Shown piece by piece: positions 1 through 7,645 of a stretch of 7,645 bases of DNA (positions are counted from its first letter, which is position 1; each line of letters starts with the position of its first letter). The DNA is from Lentzea sp. (GTDB lineage Bacteria > Actinomycetota > Actinomycetes > Mycobacteriales > Pseudonocardiaceae), in contig JASLAV010000324.1 in NCBI GenBank assembly GCA_030146905.1, positions 1-7,645 of the forward strand, read 5' to 3'. The notes under the pieces are model-generated. The model was given only the letters and a program-made list of their open reading frames with translations. It was not told the origin of the DNA and did no database searches. The translations under genes were made by a program, and so were the position numbers.

Positions 1-582
1 CTCAAGGTCGTCCGTGACATCGTGCGCGACATCATCTCCGACGCCATCGGCAAGCTGATCTCGATCTGCCTCCGATGGGCACCCGCCGTCGCAGCGGCCG
101 GCGCGGGCCTTGCGGGAGCGATCGCCGAGTGCGTCCCCGTCGCTGTCAAGTGGGCGAACAAGGCTCTGGAGGCCTGCCGCAGGCTCACCAAGGCGTTCAG
201 CAACGCAGGCGGGCTGTTCAAGAAGCTCGACGACATTCTGGTCAACGCCAAGACCGCGCTCTCCAAGAGCGGCGACGACTTCGTCAACGTACTCAAGAAG
301 GGTATCGACGCCGACATCCGGCGAAGCATGACCGACTTCTCCGTCACCGGCATGGCCAAGGACGCGTACGGAGAGGCCAAGAAGGTCGCGGTAGACGGCG
401 TCAAGACCGCTCCCGCCGAGTTCCTGCCCAAGCTGGGAATCGAGGCGACCAAGGAGTCCACCAAGTTCCGTGATTGGGAGGACGAAGCGAAGGACGGCGG
501 TGGCTGGAGAACGTGGCGCGACCTGCGGGCCGAGGAAGAGAAGAAGCAGGAAGAGAACCGCAAGGAAGCTCGGGGCGGATGA
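1..582 (+). CDS. C-terminal part of an alpha-helical type VII-secretion-associated (WXG100-like) protein, 5' end outside window
   Basis: The frame is open from base 1, so the gene begins upstream of the window; 193 residues are visible, ending with TGA. The first segment reads VRDIVRDIISDAIGKLIS, a motif I associate with the region after the WXG100-like helical hairpin in actinomycete ESX (type VII) substrates. An Ala/Gly/Val-rich hydrophobic helix follows (visible residues about 24-50), then amphipathic helices with regularly spaced Lys and Leu (60-105). The tail is very charged and hydrophilic (about 155-193), with many Glu and Lys and the Trp-containing segment GGGWRTWRDL. No enzyme motif is visible. 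Its TGA overlaps the next start as ATGA, so the two are probably translated together and may act as one unit at the envelope. The family assignment comes from pattern resemblance only; the missing N-terminus, where a WXG motif would lie, would decide it. Confidence 0.8.
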   Translation, partial: LKVVRDIVRDIISDAIGKLISICLRWAPAVAAAGAGLAGAIAECVPVAVKWANKALEACRRLTKAFSNAGGLFKKLDDILVNAKTALSKSGDDFVNVLKKGIDADIRRSMTDFSVTGMAKDAYGEAKKVAVDGVKTAPAEFLPKLGIEATKESTKFRDWEDEAKDGGGWRTWRDLRAEEEKKQEENRKEARGG

Positions 583-1496
583 AAGCCGTCCGCATCCTGC
601 ACCGGATCTTCGCGTTCCTGGTCATCCCCGTTCTCGGGTACCTGCTCGGCGCGACGATCTTCAACTACTTCTCGGACAAGGTCGAGACCGAAGACCTGAG
701 CGACGCCAGCCACATCATCGTCGCCACGTCGTGCGACCGGTACGGCCCGGTGACGCTGCGCGGCTTCGGTTACGTGTACGAGTGCCGTGCCACGGTCACG
801 AACAAGGTCAACGGCAACGTCGTCACCACGACGGCGCGAGGCTTCCTCCGGCCCGATCTCATCGGCAAGCAGGTGGCCGGTGAAGGGTTCAACCGCGGTG
901 ACCTGTATCCGGTGCGCCCGTACTCGGGGTGGGGCATGGTCCTGCTTCTGCCGTTCGGCATTCTCTGGTTCTACGTGTACATCGCGGTCGCGTGGCGGCT
1001 GTTGCCGGAGCGGCGCAAGTCCCGCCGCAAGCCGGTGCGCTATCAACGTCCTGACAACCCCACGGAACCCGATCGCACGGTTCGTGTCTTTGCCGGGCGC
1101 CGACGGGTGTGGTTGTTCTTCGTCTTTCTGCTCGGGTGTGTTGGTGTCTTCGTGTACAACTCGTCGGCGTTCCAGGACGACGCCGTCGCTACAGGTGTAG
1201 CGATCGGGTCATGGGCAGTGGTCGTCCTCGTGATCGCCAACGTCGCGTGGCGGCTGGTGCGAGGACCGATGATCGCGATCTCACCCGAGGGCCTGGAGTG
1301 GCGCGGCGCGAAGCTCAGCTGGGCTGAGATTCAGGAGGTGCAGCTGACTCGCCGCCAGGCTCTGATCATCCAGCCTCGCAACGGTGAGGTCGTGAAGATC
1401 AGCGGATTCAGCACTGAGGAGGCCACCCGCATCCATGTGGCCATGGGGCAATTCAGCCAGGCGACGTACGCCCGCGAGAGCACCAGCAGCGCGTGA
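579..1496 (+). CDS. Four-helix membrane protein, DUF6346-like with C-terminal PH-like domain
   Basis: This encodes 305 residues, with the start chosen at the ATG at 579 because it overlaps the upstream stop as ATGA; an earlier in-frame start at 474 would lie deep inside the preceding gene. Hydrophobic segments lie at about residues 8-28, 117-140, 176-194 and 203-224. The loop at 29-116 carries CDRYGPV and GFGYVYEC, with Cys52 and Cys69 positioned for a possible disulfide outside the cell. This pattern resembles the actinobacterial DUF6346 family. After the last helix, residues 229-290 (ISPEGLEWRG, LSWAEIQEVQL and later strands) look like the small beta-rich, PH-like domain often attached to bacterial membrane proteins. 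A basic linker at 143-155 (ERRKSRRKPVR) fits the cytoplasmic side. Function is unknown. Its pairing with the helical ESX-like protein suggests an envelope or secretion-associated role, which is inference. Confidence 0.85.
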   Translation: MKAVRILHRIFAFLVIPVLGYLLGATIFNYFSDKVETEDLSDASHIIVATSCDRYGPVTLRGFGYVYECRATVTNKVNGNVVTTTARGFLRPDLIGKQVAGEGFNRGDLYPVRPYSGWGMVLLLPFGILWFYVYIAVAWRLLPERRKSRRKPVRYQRPDNPTEPDRTVRVFAGRRRVWLFFVFLLGCVGVFVYNSSAFQDDAVATGVAIGSWAVVVLVIANVAWRLVRGPMIAISPEGLEWRGAKLSWAEIQEVQLTRRQALIIQPRNGEVVKISGFSTEEATRIHVAMGQFSQATYARESTSSA

Positions 1497-2342
1497 ACAC
1501 TCTTGGGTGCGACGAGCACGGGTGGCAGGAGCCTGCCGGTCTGGACGGGGTCTCAGCCGGTCTGCGGTCTTGATCCTGGGTTCGACTCCGGTTCAGGCTC
1601 CAGCACGATCCCTGGGACAACTTCCGGCGGTGTCTCGTGCGGGAACTCGGGTGTGGGCTCCGGCCCTGTCTCGGGCCAGGACTGCGGTGCCGGACCGAAC
1701 GCGCGCTGGGCGGGCGGCCAACTGGAGGCAGATCCCCGAAGCGTCGACGCCGTGCCGCTGAGCGCAGACCCTGAGACTTCGACCGCCTCGACACGGGCCG
1801 ATGCGGTGGTCGTCGTGCGACACCTATGACGTAGGCAGCTGCGCCAGCATTCACCCAAATGGGGTATTGAACACTGCTCCGACTCCAGGTTACCTTGAAA
1901 GGTCCTAGCTAAGATCGCTTGATGTGTAGGTTCCGCCGAGAGGAGTATATCGCACAGGGCAAGTGATCACAAGGTAGGCGTCGCCGATGGACCGGCCGGG
2001 CGGCCCCCGCCGTAGGGGCACTTGGAGTCGAGTGTCCCGGTGATGCGGAGCGCCACGGTAGGCGCAGGGATGCGGCGTCACGCCTGATCGGGCGTGACGC
2101 CAGACGCGGTAGAGGAGTTCATGCCCCGGCTATCTGGAGCCGGCCCTCCTCGAGGACCGTGGAGTCCCTGCCGGATCTGGCTGCGCTCCTGATCTTTTCG
2201 TGTTCGTCCGCCGACACCGCGCCGCTGCGACATGCCCGCGCCACGAATCCGTGCGTGGCTCTCTGTATCGCGGCGCACCGTCGTGCGGACGGCTGCCCAG
2301 CGAACACGACGCATCGCCGCGCACCGTGGAGGTGGAGACGCC
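1497..2342 (+). other. Long intergenic region without a convincing gene; AT-richer core and several inverted repeats
   Basis: About 850 bp separate the membrane-protein gene from the first transfer gene. The first part (1503-1860) is open on both strands: a Gly/Ser-rich frame on plus and, on minus, a Pro/Glu-rich frame ending at 1553. Neither has a good ribosome site or strong third-position GC bias, so I call neither. A compact inverted repeat, GGCAGG-AG-CCTGCC (1524-1537), lies 28 bp after the upstream stop and could be an actinomycete-type terminator without a U tract. The stretch 1845-1975 is clearly AT-richer and contains TTGAAC, TTGAAA, TAAGAT and TATATC boxes plus the palindrome GTGATCAC (1963-1970). 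I see no well-spaced -35/-10 pair, so a promoter here is only likely. From 2000 to 2101 there are GC-rich hairpins. A 23-codon frame at 2121-2192 has GAGGAG 3 bp upstream, but nothing else supports it. Confidence 0.6.
2074..2101. repeat. Perfect 11-bp inverted repeat (hairpin) upstream of the transfer genes
   Basis: GGCGTCACGCC (2074-2084) and GGCGTGACGCC (2091-2101) are perfect reverse complements around the 6-nt loop TGATCG. No T tract follows on either strand, so it is not a classical intrinsic terminator. It lies about 240 bp before the start at 2343, in the leader of the putative transfer operon, and could be an operator, an RNA leader structure or an insulating terminator. Confidence 0.75.
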
Positions 2343-3458
2343 ATGTCATCACGCGATCTACGAATCATTGATCATCAAGCCGGGCCGGCCCCTGCCCCGT
2401 CCACATCGGACGGGTGCACGGATGTGGACTCGCCGGTGGGGTCATTTCTGTGCGATCCGCCAAGCCTGTGGGCCTGGTTGTCCTACGCCGCGGGCTGGGC
2501 CTGGCACACGATCCAAGTCTGGTGGCCGCTGTTGGTACTGGTGGCAGTGGCGGCCTTGACGGTGGGCGCGCTGCTCGCCGTGGCGGTGCGGCGAGCCCGT
2601 ACAGAGGCGGCAGAGCAGGCATCGTGGGTGGAGATCACCCCTCCCGCGGTCATGCCCGCCGACGGTGCGCGCGGACTGTGGCGAGCGCTGGCAGGTCTGC
2701 TGTCCCGCACCCGCAGAGGACTCGCCCCGCGGCATTTGGCCGTGGAGTTCGTCGCCGACGCCACCGGAATGCGTGCAGGTGTGTGGGTGCCTCCGACGTT
2801 GTCGGCATCGTCGGTTGCCGAAGTGACCAGCCGCTGTTGGCCCGGTGCCCGAGCCACCATCACCAACACCCCGCCCACGGTGCACTGTGATGGTGCGGGG
2901 CGGGTGACGGCCGCGCACGTGCTGCCGCGCGGTGGCCCGTGGGCGCCGCTGTTGGACCCCTCCCGCGCCATGCGGCGACAGGCTGCCGAGGTGGACGGTC
3001 TGCACAGCGTGCTGGCCGCGCTGGCCGACCGCGGTGAGACGGACAGCGCGTGCGTGCAGCTCATCGTGTCCGTGGCCCGCACCGGCCGCCCCCGTGGCGA
3101 CCGGAGCCGGCCGTGGTGGGCGCGGATCGCACTCGGCTTCCTGAAAGCACCGTTCGTGATCATCCTCGCTATCGCGGACGTATTCCTCGGCAAGGGCTCG
3201 GCCGCCAGTCACCAGCCTGCCGCAGCCACCAGCACGCCGGAGGATCCGGCGGTGGCCGCGTACCGCAAGGCGATCGCGGCCAAGCAGGCACACGGCCCGC
3301 ATCTGCAGGCGACCCTGCGCCTGGCGGTGTGCTCTCCGGTGTCGCGACGGCTGCGGCGGCGCGCGGTGAACACGCTCGTCAACGGCTACGACCTCGCCGC
3401 CCCTGCGGCGATCCTGGCGACTCGCCCTGCCCAACGCGCGGAGCGGCAGCTGGTGTAG
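2343..3458 (+). CDS. Membrane-anchored conjugal-transfer-associated protein (N-terminal part, interrupted by in-frame TAG)
   Basis: This encodes 371 residues before TAG. I start at the ATG at 2343 because it has GGAG 5 bp (and GGAGG 10 bp) upstream; the earlier ATG at 2232 in the same frame has no such site. A soluble N-terminus is followed by a Trp-rich segment and a transmembrane helix (about residues 60-82, WWPLLVLVAVAALTVG). The segment EITPPAVMPADGARGLWRAL (98-117), with later GVWVPPTL and CWPGARATI, matches the pattern I remember for actinobacterial proteins encoded directly before TraG/HerA-like transfer ATPases; databases often call them 'ATP/GTP-binding' or 'type VI secretion' proteins. 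A second hydrophobic stretch is at 261-283. The frame stays coding after the TAG up to 3659 and supplies the missing C-terminal end, so the gene is truncated, a pseudogene, or read through. It probably works with the next ATPase at the membrane during DNA transfer. Confidence 0.8.
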   Translation: MSSRDLRIIDHQAGPAPAPSTSDGCTDVDSPVGSFLCDPPSLWAWLSYAAGWAWHTIQVWWPLLVLVAVAALTVGALLAVAVRRARTEAAEQASWVEITPPAVMPADGARGLWRALAGLLSRTRRGLAPRHLAVEFVADATGMRAGVWVPPTLSASSVAEVTSRCWPGARATITNTPPTVHCDGAGRVTAAHVLPRGGPWAPLLDPSRAMRRQAAEVDGLHSVLAALADRGETDSACVQLIVSVARTGRPRGDRSRPWWARIALGFLKAPFVIILAIADVFLGKGSAASHQPAAATSTPEDPAVAAYRKAIAAKQAHGPHLQATLRLAVCSPVSRRLRRRAVNTLVNGYDLAAPAAILATRPAQRAERQLV

Positions 3459-3659
3459 CGGCTGCCCGGACGCCGCCGGGACCGGTTCCTGGTCACCCTC
3501 GACGAGGCCGTCGCGCTGTGGCATCTGCCCGACCAGCCGGCGCAGTACGGCATCGCCGATGCCACCGCCCGTGTCCGGCGGCCCCGCCGCGACCTGCCCC
3601 GTTTCCATCCCCGCCGTCGGCCGGAACAGCCCGAGGGAGGCCAAGATGCCGCAGCCTGA
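3459..3659 (+). pseudogene. In-frame C-terminal remainder of the transfer-associated protein, downstream of the TAG
   Basis: Directly after TAG (3456-3458), the same frame runs 66 codons to TGA at 3657-3659. It contains RDRFLVTLDEAVALWHLPD, which matches the conserved C-terminal pattern of this protein class (roughly L-S/T-x-x-E-x-A-x-L-x-HLP). The next gene's start (3646) and ribosome site (3635-3640) lie inside it, giving a 14-nt overlap typical of an intact operon whose first gene ended at 3659. The intact gene would therefore be 2343-3659, with 438 codons before its TGA. A single change, for example CAG to TAG at 3456, explains the stop; readthrough is the alternative. No start codon with a ribosome site immediately follows the TAG, so separate translation of this piece is unlikely. 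Confidence 0.75.
3635..3640 (+). promoter_or_regulatory. Ribosome binding site deciding the ATPase start
   Basis: GGGAGG lies 5 nt before the ATG at 3646. It selects this start over the longer in-frame start at 3559 and places it inside the end of the preceding reading frame. Confidence 0.85.
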
Positions 3660-5199
3660 ACGCGACGAAGCATCCGCAGGTCGACACAGGTCGACGCGCC
3701 TGCGGCTCGTTCCCGCGAATCATCCGAACCGGCAGACGCCGAAGTTGTTGGGAGTCGCCAACGACGGCCCGCCCGACGTGATCGGGCTGCGGGTCGCCGA
3801 CGCCCGCCACCACGTCCACGTGCAGGGTGTGACCGGGGTGGGCAAGTCCACCTGGCTGGCCAACCACGTGCTCGCCGAAGCCGACGCCGGGCGCGGCGTC
3901 GTGTTGCTGGACTGCCAAGGAGATCTGGCCCGCCACGTGCTCGACCGGCTCCCCGCGGCCTGCGGGAACCGTCTGGTGATCCTCGATCCGACCGAGACCG
4001 AGGCACCGCCGGCGTGGAACGTGCTCGCCCCACTCGACCGTCCCAGCGGCGAGACACCGGGACGAGACACCGAGACCGCCCAACGAGACCGCGAGACGCG
4101 GCAGCGAGACGGCGAGACCGGGCGGGAGTGGGCCGCCGAGAGCGTGGTCGGTGTGTTCCGCCGCCTCTACGCCGCTTGGTGGGGACCACGGATGGACGAC
4201 GTGCTCCGCGCCGCCTGCCTGACATTGGTGCGACGGCCAGGTTCGACGCTGGCCGAGGTGATCCCGGTGCTGACGCGGCCGGAGTTCCGCCACGCCATCC
4301 TCGCCCGCTACGGCGAGCCGGAAGGGCTGGACGGCTTCTGGGAGGGCTACGACGCCCTGTCCGCGGGGCAGCGCAACCAACTCGCCGGGCCGGTGCTGTC
4401 ACGGCTGCGGTCAGTGCTGTCCCGCAGGTTCGCTCGCGACCTGCTCGGCACCGCGGCCTCCACAATCAACCTCTCCGACATCCTCGACGGCGGCATCCTG
4501 ATCGCCCGGCTGCCCAAGGGCGAGATCGGTGAGCATGCCGCCCAGCTGGTCGGGTCGTTGCTGCTATCCGGGTTGTGGTCTGCGGCCACTCGCCGCGCCA
4601 CCCTGGCGCCGGAAGACCGCAGAGACGCCACCGTCGTGGTCGACGAGTGCCACAACTTCCTGCACATGCCGATCGGCGTGGACGACGCGCTGGCCGAAGC
4701 ACACGGCTACCGGCTCTCGCTCGTGCTGGCGCACCAGCACCTCGCCCAGTTACCGCCTGATGTGCGGGAGGCAGTGGATGCCAACGCCCGCAACAAAATC
4801 CTGTTCACCGTCTCCCCGAACGACGCGACCAAACTCGTGCGGCACGTGGCACCCTATTTCGACGAACGTGACCTCGCCCGCCGTCACGCCTTCGAGGTTC
4901 TGGCCCGCACCGTCCACCACGGACACGACGTGCCACCTTTCACGCTCGCCACGGAACCGCTGCCGCCGCCTGTTCGTGGCCGTGCTGAACAACTCCGGGC
5001 CGCAGCACGCAAACGAACCGGCCTGACCGCCGAGCAGCGCGCCCGCGCCACACGCCGCCGGCATGTCAACACTGCGCCCCGCGCCGCCCGGCTGGGCGCC
5101 GATCCCACTCGCACTGTGGTGCCCAGTCAGTCAGTGGGCCACTCGGTGGGCCAGCCACCGGCCACTCAACGGGGCACCTATGACTGGCCCACTGACTGA
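3646..5199 (+). CDS. TraG/TraD/HerA-like conjugal DNA-transfer ATPase
   Basis: This 517-residue protein is a P-loop motor of the type IV coupling protein and HerA/FtsK-like group, expected to pump DNA through the membrane using ATP. Walker A is GVTGVGKST (residues 61-69). It is followed by VVLLDCQGDLARHVL (85-99), equivalent to the 'IDPHGDL' segment of this family. Walker B is ATVVVDECHNF (328-338, acidic pair Asp333-Glu334), and SLVLAHQHLAQLP (358-370) is the typical motif after it. There is no transmembrane helix, so it probably relies on the upstream membrane protein as its anchor, as in the paired-gene arrangement known from actinobacterial elements. Residues about 135-161 are an odd charged insertion made of ET-x-x-RD-x heptads, encoded by a 21-bp tandem repeat. 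The C-terminus (SVGHSVGQPP...) is low complexity and coincides with a DNA inverted repeat. The gene overlaps the preceding frame by 14 nt and is followed 49 bp later by the Replic_Relax gene. Confidence 0.92.
   Translation: MPQPERDEASAGRHRSTRLRLVPANHPNRQTPKLLGVANDGPPDVIGLRVADARHHVHVQGVTGVGKSTWLANHVLAEADAGRGVVLLDCQGDLARHVLDRLPAACGNRLVILDPTETEAPPAWNVLAPLDRPSGETPGRDTETAQRDRETRQRDGETGREWAAESVVGVFRRLYAAWWGPRMDDVLRAACLTLVRRPGSTLAEVIPVLTRPEFRHAILARYGEPEGLDGFWEGYDALSAGQRNQLAGPVLSRLRSVLSRRFARDLLGTAASTINLSDILDGGILIARLPKGEIGEHAAQLVGSLLLSGLWSAATRRATLAPEDRRDATVVVDECHNFLHMPIGVDDALAEAHGYRLSLVLAHQHLAQLPPDVREAVDANARNKILFTVSPNDATKLVRHVAPYFDERDLARRHAFEVLARTVHHGHDVPPFTLATEPLPPPVRGRAEQLRAAARKRTGLTAEQRARATRRRHVNTAPRAARLGADPTRTVVPSQSVGHSVGQPPATQRGTYDWPTD
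4051..4118 (+). repeat. 21-bp tandem repeat with phased GAGAC motifs, inside the ATPase gene
   Basis: GAGAC starts at 4051, 4064, 4072, 4085, 4093, 4106 and 4114, giving intervals of 13, 8, 13, 8, 13 and 8 bp. Three full 21-bp units (4051, 4072, 4093) and the start of a fourth are present. Bases between the GAGAC cores vary while the cores and spacing are exact. At the protein level the repeat encodes ETPGRDT, ETAQRDR, ETRQRDG and ETGRE. The 10-mer GCAGCGAGAC (4101-4110) also occurs twice in the intergenic cluster near 6300. Confidence 0.9.
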
Positions 5200-5200
5200 C
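5126..5200. repeat. Perfect 16-bp inverted repeat spanning the ATPase stop codon
   Basis: GTCAGTCAGTGGGCCA (5126-5141) and TGGCCCACTGACTGAC (5185-5200) are perfect reverse complements, 43 bp apart. The spacer holds a second GTGGGCCA (5147-5153 region) and a small CGGTGG/CCACCG hairpin (5144-5149 with 5155-5160). GGTGCCC (5118-5124) can also pair with GGGCACC (5172-5178). The right arm covers the TGA of the ATPase gene (5197-5199), and no T tract follows. It could reduce readthrough into the next gene, stabilise the transcript, or be a protein-binding site. Confidence 0.85.
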
Positions 5201-5239
5201 CGCCCCGGCACCGGCCTTTCCGCAGCTCACGGCAGAAGT

Positions 5240-5244
5240 GGAGG
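5240..5244 (+). promoter_or_regulatory. Ribosome binding site deciding a GTG start
   Basis: GGAGG lies 4 nt before the GTG at 5249. It selects this start for the Replic_Relax protein over in-frame starts inside the ATPase gene, such as 5063. Confidence 0.85.
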
Positions 5245-5248
5245 AACA

Positions 5249-6193
5249 GTGCGCGTCTCCCGACATTCATCGATACATCCGCACACACCCCCAAGGGTGG
5301 AGATCCGCCCGGCAAGCCGGGCCGACGTGCTCACGCACTCGCGCGGGCTCACCGCCCGCGATGCCGAGGTGATCTCCTACCTGGCGCGGCATCGGGTGCT
5401 CACCGCACTGCAGCTCGCGCGGCTGGTGTTCGGCTCCTACTCCCATGCCCGCTCCCGGCTCGCTGTACTCCACGAGCGCGGCGTGCTCGCCCGCTTCCGC
5501 CGTGACATCTGGCCCGGCTCCCAGCCGTGGCGCTACACCCTCGGCCCCGTGGGCGCGGTCGTGCACGCAGCCGCCACCGGAGCCGCACTGCCGCGTCCCG
5601 CTACGGTCACCGAAACCGTGCTTCGGCTCGCGCACTCCACCCACACCGAACACCGACTCGGCGTCAACGACTTCTTCGCCAACCTGGCTGGACACACCCG
5701 AGACCATCCCGAGTGCGCCCTGCGCGAATGGTGGCCGGAATACGAGATCACCGAAACCTGCGCAGGCATCGTCCGCCCTGATGCCTACGGTGAATACACC
5801 GCTGCCGACAGCACGCTCGCGTTCTTCTACGAACACGACACCGGAACCGAACCCATCGCGACCCTGGTGGAGAAAGTCGGCAAGTACGCCGAGCTGGCCG
5901 ACGCAGGCATCCGCAAGCCCGTCCTGTTCCAGCTCCCGAGCACGAGCCGCGAACACAACTTCCACATCGGCCTCGCACAGCGCTGGCCGCACAAGACACC
6001 CGTGCCCCTGGCGACCTTGCCCACCGACCAACTCGCCCCGCCCAACCACCGCATCACGCCCGCCACACCATCCATCGTGGACGAGCTCTGGCTGCCAGCT
6101 GGGCATGCACGTCGCCGCACGCTCGCCAACCTCACATCTCGCCGCACGCAACAGTTGGAGGATGATCGAGACTTCTACCTTCGTTCCGCCTGA
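5249..6193 (+). CDS. Replication-relaxation (Replic_Relax) family protein
   Basis: This 314-residue protein starts at GTG 5249, with GGAGG 4 nt upstream. The N-terminal part (about 34-100) reads GLTARDAEVISYLARHRVLTALQLARLVFG, then SYSHARSRLAVLHERGVLARFRRD and WRYTLGPVGA. This is the winged-helix pattern of the Replic_Relax family found on actinobacterial plasmids and integrative elements next to transfer ATPase genes. The C-terminal half holds RPDAYGEY (176-183), FFYEHDTGTE (192-201) and a following K..KY (208-213). These acidic and lysine residues recall a PD-(D/E)xK-like fold, which I infer from spacing only. The family is linked by name to plasmid replication and relaxation; its exact biochemical role is not established from this sequence. 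It probably binds DNA through the winged helix, and the GAGAC dyad starting about 60 bp after its stop is an obvious candidate target. It ends with TGA, 350 bp before the next gene. Confidence 0.9.
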   Translation: MRVSRHSSIHPHTPPRVEIRPASRADVLTHSRGLTARDAEVISYLARHRVLTALQLARLVFGSYSHARSRLAVLHERGVLARFRRDIWPGSQPWRYTLGPVGAVVHAAATGAALPRPATVTETVLRLAHSTHTEHRLGVNDFFANLAGHTRDHPECALREWWPEYEITETCAGIVRPDAYGEYTAADSTLAFFYEHDTGTEPIATLVEKVGKYAELADAGIRKPVLFQLPSTSREHNFHIGLAQRWPHKTPVPLATLPTDQLAPPNHRITPATPSIVDELWLPAGHARRRTLANLTSRRTQQLEDDRDFYLRSA

Positions 6194-6240
6194 AACTCAT
6201 TTCCCACAACATGTTCCGGACTCGCGTCGAACGCCCGTCT

Positions 6241-6348
6241 GTCTCGCATCAGGTGAGACCAGCAAAGAGACAGCGAGACAACGCCGAGACCGCAGCGAGA
6301 CACCTGCTCTCGCTCGTCTCGACCAGGTCTCGCAGCTTGTCTCGCTGC
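6241..6348. repeat. Phased GAGAC/GTCTC cluster forming an inverted-repeat dyad
   Basis: GAGAC starts at 6255, 6267, 6275, 6286 and 6297; GTCTC starts at 6241, 6316, 6327 and 6339. Around the centre (6302-6315) the arms mirror each other with three sites each: 6275, 6286, 6297 against 6316, 6327, 6339, at 11-12 bp intervals, close to one helical turn. The arm ends CAGCGAGACAA (6271-6281) and TTGTCTCGCTG (6337-6347) are perfect reverse complements, and the middle sites share CGAGACC. GCAGCGAGAC occurs at 6292-6301 and, inverted, at 6339-6348. The arrangement suggests cooperative protein binding on one face of DNA, or a large cruciform. Confidence 0.9.
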
Positions 6349-6453
6349 ACCAAGGGCAACAACGTCCGGAGCGCGACTACAGAGCCGGTGATCGCCGGCC
6401 CCGACGGGTGCCGAAGTGCAGTCGGGGAGTCGAGGCCCACCAGTTGGCTTTCC

Positions 6454-6484
6454 TGTTCGACGCCACGACCTGGCCTGTCGAACA
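6454..6484. repeat. 8-bp inverted repeat upstream of the 95-aa gene, possible operator
   Basis: TGTTCGAC (6454-6461) and GTCGAACA (6477-6484) are perfect reverse complements with a 15-bp spacer, about 60 bp before the next start. The half-sites contain GTTCGA, as in actinobacterial LexA boxes, but the orientation and spacing differ from a LexA site. An element-encoded regulator is an equally possible reader. Confidence 0.55.
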
Positions 6485-6487
6485 ACC

Positions 6488-6526
6488 GCCCGTGACATCA
6501 CGCGCACCAGGAGCGTGCTCACGGGC
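6488..6526 (+). promoter_or_regulatory. Stem-loop immediately upstream of the ribosome site of the recombinase unit
   Basis: GCCCGTGA (6488-6495) pairs perfectly with TCACGGGC (6519-6526), and an inner CACGC (6499-6503) pairs with GCGTG (6513-6517), giving a two-tier stem of 8 and 5 bp. The base of the stem ends 4 nt before GGAGG (6531-6535). It has no T tract. It could control translation or transcription of the 95-aa protein and recombinase, or protect the transcript end; this is inference from position. Confidence 0.65.
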
Positions 6527-6530
6527 ATCT

Positions 6531-6535
6531 GGAGG
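6531..6535 (+). promoter_or_regulatory. Ribosome binding site of the 95-aa gene
   Basis: GGAGG lies 8 nt before the ATG at 6544. The in-frame GTG at 6535 overlaps this site and is therefore not the likely start. Confidence 0.75.
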
Positions 6536-6543
6536 TGCCGACG

Positions 6544-6831
6544 ATGGACCCCCAACCGCACGATTACGCAATTGTTGTTCCACTGCCTCGAAAAGCACCC
6601 GATGGTGACATCGAGATCCCGCCCCATACCATCCCTGAACAGGTGGTTTGGCGGTATGATGGGACCGGAAAGCGCACGAAGAACTGGACTTTCTCCGGTC
6701 ACGTGCGCTACGTGAGTGGCGCCGAAGGCGATCGTTTACGCGGCGAGCTGAATGCCGTGATCCACGACCTTCTCGACTGGGCTATGACCCAGGAATGCGC
6801 CGAACAACCCGACGAGCGGGAGGCTGCATGA
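6544..6831 (+). CDS. Small protein of unknown function, translationally coupled to the serine recombinase
   Basis: This encodes 95 residues and is not recognised. The first half is Pro-rich and polar (MDPQPHDYAIVVPLP, then IPPHTIPEQVVWRYDGTGKRTKNW). The middle, WTFSGHVRYVSGAEGDRLRGEL, could form strands followed by an amphipathic helix (about 63-82, RLRGELNAVIHDLLDWA), and the tail is acidic. No membrane helix, signal peptide or cysteine motif is seen. The stop overlaps the recombinase start as ATGA, and GGGAGG for the recombinase (6818-6823) lies inside this gene, so the two are co-expressed. A small gene placed directly before a large serine recombinase could encode a helper such as a directionality factor or a regulator. 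That is only a suggestion from position; the sequence shows no DNA-binding motif I can name. Confidence 0.75.
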   Translation: MDPQPHDYAIVVPLPRKAPDGDIEIPPHTIPEQVVWRYDGTGKRTKNWTFSGHVRYVSGAEGDRLRGELNAVIHDLLDWAMTQECAEQPDEREAA

Positions 6832-7622
6832 ACACCCCGAACAACCCCGAAACAGACCCGCCCGCACCAGCACTGGCCGCACGGTTCCCCGCGGCGCTCA
6901 CCGTGGTGCCGTCCGGGCCGTCAGGGTTGTCGGACTACGCGGTCTCGCCACTCGGCTTGCCGACAGCCTTGCTGCGCAACGAAGTCCGGGTCGCCTTTCT
7001 CGCTCGAACGTCCACGGACGACCAGCAAGATCCGCGCCAATCCATGTTGCGGCAGCTCGGAAACTGCAAGGCCGCTATCCCTGAGTCGTGGGTGATCGTC
7101 GCGCACTTCTACGACGTCGAGTCAGGCCGCATGGAACTCGACCTACGCGGCCGTGGTGAGAACTACGAGCGCTACGACATCCCGATCGCCCGTGACGGCG
7201 GGGTCACCGGCCTGCTCGACGAAGCCACTCATCCAGGCCGCCGGTTCGATGTCGTGATCTGCGAGAGCGTCTCGCGAGTCGCCCGCCGCACTTTCGAGGG
7301 CCTCTCGATCGAACGGGAGTTGGAGCGAGTCGAGGTCCCGCTGTTCGCCTCCAACGAACCGATCACACTGGCCGGGAGTCGAGCGCAGCGGATTCTGCAG
7401 CGGCGGATCAACCAGTCGGTGGCCGAGTACGAGGTCCTCAACACCCTCGAACAGTCCTGGGGTGGACTGTGCACGCACGTGCGCGAAGGCTGGAACATCG
7501 GCAAACCGCCGTATGGCTACAAGGCCAAGATCTACCGCCACCCCAACCCCACCAAGGCCGTCAAGGGTCAGACCAAGACACGGCTCGAGCCCGACGGCCT
7601 GCAGGGCGAGACTGTCACGTAG
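6828..7622 (+). CDS. Large serine recombinase/integrase (catalytic domain and start of recombinase domain, ends at in-frame TAG)
   Basis: This encodes 264 residues from ATG 6828, with GGGAGG 4 nt upstream and an ATGA overlap with the 95-aa gene. After a Pro/Ala-rich leader of about 50 residues comes the resolvase domain: RVAFLARTSTDDQQDPRQSMLRQ (54-76), with Ser62 of RTS as the likely nucleophile, FYDVESGR (94-101), and FDVVICESVSRVARR (140-154), which carries the conserved arginines (Arg150, Arg153). VPLFASNEPI (170-179) closes the domain. The recombinase domain begins at GWNIGKPPYGYKAK (221-234), with HPNP and KTRLEPD after it. Large serine recombinases usually exceed 450 residues, so this product lacks most of the DNA-binding part. 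The frame stays open after the TAG to the window edge and continues with family-like sequence. The intact enzyme would integrate and excise the element; with a real stop it should be inactive. Confidence 0.88.
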   Translation: MNTPNNPETDPPAPALAARFPAALTVVPSGPSGLSDYAVSPLGLPTALLRNEVRVAFLARTSTDDQQDPRQSMLRQLGNCKAAIPESWVIVAHFYDVESGRMELDLRGRGENYERYDIPIARDGGVTGLLDEATHPGRRFDVVICESVSRVARRTFEGLSIERELERVEVPLFASNEPITLAGSRAQRILQRRINQSVAEYEVLNTLEQSWGGLCTHVREGWNIGKPPYGYKAKIYRHPNPTKAVKGQTKTRLEPDGLQGETVT

Positions 7623-7645
7623 ATGGCCGCGTGGCGCTATCACGA
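7623..7645 (+). pseudogene. In-frame continuation of the serine recombinase after TAG, cut by window edge
   Basis: The seven full codons after the TAG read MAAWRYH, and the last two bases (GA) fit Glu or Asp. Homologous recombinases, as I remember them, have a segment like T-Q-I-x-x-W-R at this place, so the TAG sits where a Gln (CAG) is common. The piece is too short to prove alone, but it agrees with the premature end of the domain. The ATG straight after the stop is part of this frame and has no ribosome site before it. Confidence 0.5.

Follow-up and report, generated by a model that had tools for sequence, protein, structure and literature searches.

What purpose is served by a dense cluster of one short DNA word directly behind the relaxase gene of a small mobile element? 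The question is raised by a 7,645-nucleotide stretch of Lentzea sp. DNA (assembly GCA_030146905.1, contig JASLAV010000324.1, positions 1 to 7,645; hereafter the window), in which the cluster is part of an integrative element of about 7 kb encoding orf0, a VirD4/HerA-like ATPase, a Replic_Relax relaxase, a 98-amino-acid protein (hp98) and a serine integrase. An original prediction, made from the letters alone, had described the cluster as a helically phased GAGAC dyad and as a candidate transfer, replication or recombination site. Here, the array of CGAGAC/GTCTCG half-sites is found to be real and evolutionarily conserved, and no CGAGAC site of mobile elements was met in the titles and opening parts of abstracts of the open-access literature searched. 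The explanation favoured here, at a probability of roughly 0.4, is that the array would be a control site of the integration module, made up of several half-sites to which a protein binds.

A conserved array of CGAGAC half-sites

Nine intact pentamers, GAGAC or its complement GTCTC, start at 6241 (−), at 6255, 6267, 6275, 6286 and 6297 (+) and at 6316, 6327 and 6339 (−). They span 103 bp, beginning 47 bp past the relaxase stop and ahead of the recombinase unit. This placement, the nine copies in about 105 bp, the mirror arrangement with three pentamers per arm (steps of 11 and 11 bp, and of 11 and 12 bp) and the perfect 11-nucleotide outer arms (6271-6281 pairing with 6337-6347) had all been claimed beforehand and were all recovered. 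The claimed helical phasing fared less well: when a 10.5-bp period was compared with random steps of 8-13 bp none of ten runs was significant singly, and the pooled value (P 0.033) is suggestive only.

At least seven pentamers per 103 bp were never reached in 3,000 simulations at each of the Markov orders 1, 2 and 3 (maxima 5, 5 and 6), and the most frequent 5-mer of any kind in 300 order-2 runs came to 7 copies, compared to 9 in the array. The background of about one copy per 500 bp assumed in the original prediction was somewhat too low, the expectation being 22.8 per window or about one per 335 bp. The whole window holds 32 pentamers, 16 of which fall within two arrays. Since at least 32 were also present in 4 of 200 shuffles, what is remarkable is how tightly the copies cluster, not their overall number. 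A maximum-order Markov estimate of CGAGAC over-representation proved uninformative because its expectation is drawn from the same short sequence, and cluster simulations were used instead. An open reading frame (ORF) of 94 amino acids running across the array (6211-6495) was rejected as a gene, having stops in the corresponding frame of L002 and L059 and no third-position excess.

The window element and 31 loci, all read in one orientation, formed a comparison set of 32 elements. The boundary of a 15-element subfamily was set by us on likeness to the window element, leaving out L062 (a second copy of the L063 element, G288), L123-L125 (G361; relaxase identity 44-46%; no array) and the distant loci L068-L072 and L126-L134, of which 11 were tested for the relaxase-upstream dyad described below and 2 entered the cluster simulations. 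A total of 30 larger stretches was retrieved; among the short loci L029-L058 were scanned, L034-L038 inspected and L073-L118 left out. An array 3′ of the relaxase gene was present in 8 of the 32 elements, belonging to two lineages: the Lentzea type (the window element, L001, L002 and L059) and a second type (L060, L061, L121 and L122; relaxase identity 55-61%). The search of related elements for GAGAC arrays next to Replic_Relax genes, proposed with the original prediction, thus located the array at the same position in seven relatives. A lack of conservation in sister elements had been named, together with a lack of binding by any element protein, as grounds for discarding the prediction, and on the first point it holds, with half-sites kept more than spacers.

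A tenth, degenerate half-site, CTCTCG, is found at 6307-6312 of the window. The centre CGAGAC-N5-NTCTCG is present in all eight arrays, and where the window has CTCTCG, a perfect GTCTCG stands in six sister arrays out of seven (L001, L002, L060, L061, L121 and L122, not L059), so the true centre is the dyad CGAGAC-N5-GTCTCG. The right arms of the eight arrays carry additional GTCTCG-like half-sites at steps of mostly 9-12 bp, and the arrays of L002 and L059 are shorter by exactly 11 bp, which is one half-site unit. Counting as half-site columns those with a pentamer in at least two of four arrays, invariant columns made up 42 of 50 in half-sites versus 22 of 53 in spacers for the Lentzea type, and 38 of 51 versus 27 of 71 for the second type. 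Judged from these alignments, the pattern is the signature of a putative protein-binding array.

In the cluster simulations the observed counts were reached in 0 of 300 for all eight 3′ arrays. A further set of clusters, matching CGRGAC, was found 5′ of orf0 in L064, L066 and L067, partly within a DUF2637 gene, where they fall between the membrane domain and a C-terminal motif. The L064 cluster was reached in 0 of 300 simulations for CGAGAC and in 1 of 300 for CGRGAC, and that of L067 in 0 of 300 for both. The subfamily members L063, L065, L119 and L120 have no CGAGAC or CGRGAC cluster and were random-like in the simulations. On the genome scale, a triple GAGAC pattern was found at 19 places in G001, 10 of them within this element, and at 7 in G002, 5 of them within it (control 0). 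The looser CGRGAC pattern was discarded as unspecific, the reversed control being higher in 5 of 10 genomes (G002, G211, G008, G196 and G154). On contig C2 of G248, a 14-bp minisatellite, CGAGACCGAAGCCC, extends from 5281237 to at least 5281690 and is arranged unlike the element arrays.

A second array, overlooked in the original prediction, lies inside the ATPase gene, where seven GAGAC copies at 4051-4118 are built from a 21-bp, seven-codon unit. It is an in-frame insertion in 4 of 16 aligned ATPases, with intact GAGAC counts of 7 in the window element, 7 in L001, 5 in L002 and 6 in L059. Arginine is written as CGA in 3 of 5 codons within this array versus 3 of 56 in the rest of the gene, and although the numbers are small, this clustering of rare CGA codons makes it appear that conservation acts on the DNA word and not on the peptide. 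An in-frame array in a translocase gene would be an unusual means of carrying a second, putative binding site. CGAGAC clusters are found in three settings: 3′ of the relaxase gene, in frame within the ATPase gene, and 5′ of orf0 including the DUF2637 gene.

A module seam and a separate candidate transfer origin

Array-bearing L061 and L121 and array-less L063 and L120 are about 77% identical at the DNA level from orf0 to the reading frame that follows the relaxase gene. This homology stops at 8627 in L061 and at 11454 in L121, and the arrays start at 8644 and 11460; in L060 the final match ends at 8285 and the array starts at 8321. Within the Lentzea type, identity between the window element and L059 is 762/930 in the relaxase gene and 1209/1263 to the right of the array (82% versus 96%; Fisher 4e-26), and between L001 and L059 it is 767/930 and 1216/1263 (82% versus 96%; Fisher 1e-27). 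The switch in identity occurs near 6325, a 40-bp stretch at 6206 being also 90% identical. No contrast across the array is displayed by the window element and L001 (898/945, 1200/1266) or by L002 and L059 (850/930, 1168/1263). Because homology breaks at the array, the simplest reading of these alignments is that the integration cassette was exchanged there in both lineages, so that the array would be the seam at which an array-small ORF-integrase cassette is swapped. The earlier label of recombination site therefore survives in another sense, that of a swap point for cassettes. The integrases are of three types, and in the subfamily the 3′ array accompanies 8 of 8 co-directional and 0 of 7 convergent integrases, the co-directional ones comprising two types that are only 22-24% identical.

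The array had also been proposed as an oriT (origin of transfer), a clt-like locus or a replication origin. An essential role of this kind is disfavoured because the close relatives L063 and L120 retain the transfer genes (orf0, ATPase and relaxase) without the array, and because homology stops there. A different site is more suggestive. An inverted repeat (5126-5200) spans the ATPase stop about 50 bp 5′ of the relaxase gene and about 1,000 bases from the array. Comparable repeats, with arms of 16-21 nucleotides and an end 47-55 bp ahead of the relaxase start, are found in 14 of the 15 subfamily elements, and this dyad beats all 20 Markov simulations in 13 elements, falling below in L061 and lacking in L064; it was found in none of the 11 distant elements tested. 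Its arms are lineage-specific yet complementary, and, as judged by eye, the repeat unit changes where a helix of the relaxase changes. On this comparison the repeat is regarded as a better oriT candidate than the array, and the array itself is probably not the transfer origin. The separation of two sites that are easily lumped, the relaxase-linked dyad and the seam-linked CGAGAC array, predicts which protein binds which site.

It is nonetheless conceivable that the ATPase, the relaxase or both load on the CGAGAC array and start transfer there. The array lies 3′ of the relaxase gene, a second one is within the ATPase gene, and the short direct and inverted repeats resemble those given for Streptomyces clt loci in the part of PMC3583192 consulted, where that of pWTY27 lies partly inside its tra gene. 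This reading is unlikely, however, given the array-less L063 and L120, with their transfer genes at about 77% identity, and the separate dyad upstream of the relaxase gene. The relaxase was also rejected as first choice for the array binder, since its helix segment FGSPHHARHRL is unchanged in L060 and L061, which have the array, and in L063 and L120, which do not (L121 and L122 were excluded from the protein alignment). Some doubt attaches to this rejection because the residues directly after the segment differ slightly among these four.

Candidate functions of the array

A binding site controlling the integration module would accommodate the dyad, the conserved half-sites, the position at the seam and the co-occurrence with co-directional integrases. 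A DNA-binding protein may dock as a dimer on CGAGAC-N5-GTCTCG and then spread cooperatively to the flanking CGAGAC half-sites, spaced at 8-13 bp. The complex would be located between a putative transfer operon (orf0-ATPase-relaxase) and a co-directional small-ORF/integrase operon, and would most likely decide expression of the integrase operon or insulate it from transcription of the transfer operon. In the Lentzea lineage, the array in the ATPase gene could serve as an auxiliary site, by looping or as a road-block. An anonymous repeat would thereby become a testable control point of a widespread element family that is apparently little studied in the literature searched.

Several observations weigh against this explanation. 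Family searches recognised no regulator gene among the element genes of the window, and hp98 folds at low confidence (predicted local distance difference test, pLDDT, 61). No promoter match was found beside the array, the sole match in 6100-6700 being inside hp98 (6605-6632). The co-occurrence of array and integrase orientation stems from few independent events, the window element and L002 are intermediate in the seam test, and the arrays of L064, L066 and L067 do not adjoin an integrase. For L066 the CGAGAC count was reached in 196 of 300 simulations, leaving CGRGAC (0 of 300) as its sole significant pattern. Finally, the flanks of the Lentzea-type arrays are conserved almost like the half-sites (invariant in 69 of 92 columns; 40 of 89 in the second type).

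One may speculate more broadly that CGAGAC arrays are a portable code, in which one conserved protein of the element or the host reads all three contexts, with the 3′ array serving as a dedicated joint for swapping transfer and integration cassettes from element to element. This would amount to a class of cis-acting site not described so far, and we consider it rather unlikely. A replication origin or partition centromere, with the repeats as iterons for an initiator or for a ParB/TubR-like protein, is quite unlikely: the same core genes are retained by relatives that lack an array, the window proteins searched matched no replication-initiator, partition or ParB-type family, and the array in the ATPase gene is one-sided and present in 4 of the 8 elements having a 3′ array.

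The exchange breakpoints at the array in both lineages could alternatively mean that the repeats are simply a crossover patch for cassette exchange without a specific binder. Homologous recombination, however, could do without conserved half-sites amid diverged spacers and without a dyad whose steps are alike from lineage to lineage, and it would leave the repeats set in frame into the ATPase gene unexplained, which makes this account improbable. No more credit is given to an RNA or single-strand hairpin acting as terminator or insulator of the transfer operon. All seven arrays tested, out of eight, fold better than shuffles on average (z of −3.6 in the window element and −7.6, −5.4, −3.1, −3.7, −2.0 and −2.2 in the others), and two terminator-like matches on the minus strand, one of them within the array, compare to 0.4 expected in 6100-6700. 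The paired columns of the four Lentzea-type arrays are, however, mostly invariant half-sites, with two-sided change in 1 of 32 pairs and a covariation score reached by 80 of 500 shuffles. Furthermore, the predicted folds vary between elements, the single-orientation array in the ATPase gene cannot fold in this manner, and no Rfam match was obtained at E 0.1.

A decoy or operator for a TetR-like host regulator with a CGAGAC half-site is highly improbable. In its favour, the L. albidocapillata genome G001 contains 20 dyads of the form CGAGAC-N5-GTCTCG (none for the control pattern), one being the element's own, and host dyads L137 (G325) and L149 (G002) adjoin TetR-family genes. Against it, the three neighbours scanned among eight dyad surroundings viewed were two TetR genes and one thioesterase gene; CGAGACGGWCCGTCTCG, a longer palindrome that does not resemble the centres of the arrays, accounts for 8 of the 20 dyads in G001; the six other genomes with a 3′ array have 0-4 dyads; and TetR dimers leave the tandem half-sites unexplained. 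The G001 dyads and the TetR neighbours in the two other genomes may represent a TetR regulon in their own right.

Genes of the element and relation to known systems

Table 1. Features of the window, with coordinates on its forward strand.
Feature	Position	Strand	Remarks
CGAGAC/GTCTCG array	6241..6343	.	9 intact GAGAC/GTCTC pentamers and 1 degenerate; at the putative seam of transfer and integration modules
Central dyad CGAGAC-N5-CTCTCG	6296..6312	.	Right half degenerate in the window element and L059
Second array	4050..4118	+	7 direct GAGAC, 13/8-bp alternation; in-frame insertion in the ATPase gene
Inverted repeat, candidate oriT	5126..5200	.	19-nucleotide arms 5126-5144 / 5182-5200, one mismatch
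orf0	2232..3458	+	ATPase partner; about 66-67 amino acids shorter than in L001, L002 and L059
Coupling-type ATPase, HerA-like	3646..5199	+	Weak TrwB_AAD_bind / Zot Pfam matches
Replic_Relax (PF13814) relaxase, MOBC-type	5249..6193	+	Winged helix and C-terminal domain
Non-coding leader	6349..6534	+	Between array and hp98
hp98, 98-amino-acid protein	6535..6831	+	No assigned function
Large serine integrase, N-terminal part	6828..7622	+	Sister copies longer (665 amino acids in L001)

The ends of the element were inferred by alignment of L001 with L002, and no further large genes were called between them; none of 10 proteins searched reached an NCBIfam family cut-off. The ATPase frame is open from 3370 and its start was assumed to be the ATG at 3646. 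Its TrwB_AAD_bind match has an E-value of 7.6e-5 (22.2 bits versus a cut-off of 20.5). In the distant relative L069, orf0 and ATPase are fused as one protein of 889 amino acids (5590-8259) that is above cut-off for DUF87, TrwB_AAD_bind and T4SS-DNA_transf, and this fusion suggests that orf0 and ATPase act together. The ATPase also matches, besides HerA, the PADLOC model mad8 (mads_8) at 1.4e-13.

The relaxase matches PF13814 at E=4e-45. Its winged helix, at about residues 23-113, is predicted to be centromere-binder-like in fold resemblance only, and it dominates the Foldseek comparison, in which no PDB match was obtained at E<=0.001 and the FokI, PaqCI and BamHI rows were weak. The C-terminal domain, with weak nuclease-like matches, we tentatively take to be a PD-(D/E)XK nuclease. 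The length of hp98 is 95 or 98 amino acids depending on the start chosen. A search with it returned 12 matches, the 4 with an organism name being all Lentzea; against PDB sequences nothing matched up to E 10. As a candidate DNA-binding protein it was left undecided, the predicted structure being too uncertain at pLDDT 61. The leader differs between the window element and L059 at 9 of 185 aligned positions, with no codon-position bias.

TAG stops end the integrase (7620-7622) and orf0 (3456-3458) early in the window element. Since the sister copies in L001, L002 and L059 have longer frames of both, the present copy may be decaying. The related integrases of L060 and L121 are at different tRNAs. 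The left flank (1-1496) encodes a DUF6346 protein, as do the sequences beside L001, L002 and L059, and in L001 the preceding gene has a WXG100-like domain. Concerning distribution, a related Replic_Relax protein is encoded by 150 of the 297 genomes sampled from the host family (E<=0.001), and the L063 relaxase has matches at three places in its genome assembly. A plasmid collection yielded 18 records matching the ATPase, the best at 41-45% identity (two from Embleya, one from Streptomyces), and 3 matching the relaxase, at 34-37%; IMG/VR gave no match with the ATPase as query.

Among described sites, those most like the array in appearance are the Streptomyces clt loci of pIJ101, pJV1, pSVH1 and pWTY27. 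As presented in the part of PMC3583192 consulted, they have direct repeats of 5-9 bp together with inverted repeats, and are found near the DNA-translocase gene or, in pWTY27, partly within it. The array shares with these loci a cluster of short direct and inverted repeats near or in a translocase gene. It is unlike them in that the clt motifs quoted in the same part, GC/AAAC, CCGCACA[C/G][C/G], TGACACC and CCCGCCC (PMC3583192), differ from CGAGAC. The translocase of the element is moreover VirD4/HerA-like, with no FtsK_SpoIIIE match in Pfam at E<=0.001 (the fused L069 homologue has one at 0.001, below the family cut-off), and the array is not conserved with it, L063, L065, L119 and L120 keeping the ATPase without an array. 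An oriT is resembled insofar as inverted repeats lie 47 bp past the relaxase stop, but the array is not found wherever the same relaxase occurs, whereas the dyad at 5126-5200 is a relaxase-adjacent inverted repeat that is conserved with the relaxase.

Plasmids of the CloDF13 type are MOBC-type plasmids with their own VirD4 coupling protein. In the sections consulted, the PF13814 relaxase is listed as Rel_PF13814/MobC (PMC5357655), and a VirD4 coupling protein with MobC is given for two putative streptococcal integrative and mobilizable elements (IMEs) and for the few mobilizable plasmids with their own coupling protein (PMC5704250). The present element is like MOBC-type IMEs in having a PF13814 relaxase beside a VirD4-like ATPase, plus an integrase. 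It is unlike the streptococcal ones in that its family is actinobacterial, of about 7 kb and with a serine integrase, several members ending at tRNA genes, and the sections of these two reports examined contain no CGAGAC arrays (PMC5357655, PMC5704250). Actinomycete integrative and conjugative elements (AICEs) are described, in the portion of PMC3218068 seen, as small actinobacterial integrative elements with int and a translocation module, often at tRNA genes, and the present element is likewise a small actinobacterial integrative element. It is unlike them in that, of the seven ORFs of the window that were scanned, none matched FtsK_SpoIIIE, DUF3631 (RepAM) or Prim-Pol at E<=0.001, RepSA not being among the families searched.

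Iteron and multi-half-site operators combine a central dyad with half-sites about one helical turn apart. The array shares this layout, and it is unlike such operators in that its motif is clustered in three genomic contexts, one of them in frame within a gene.
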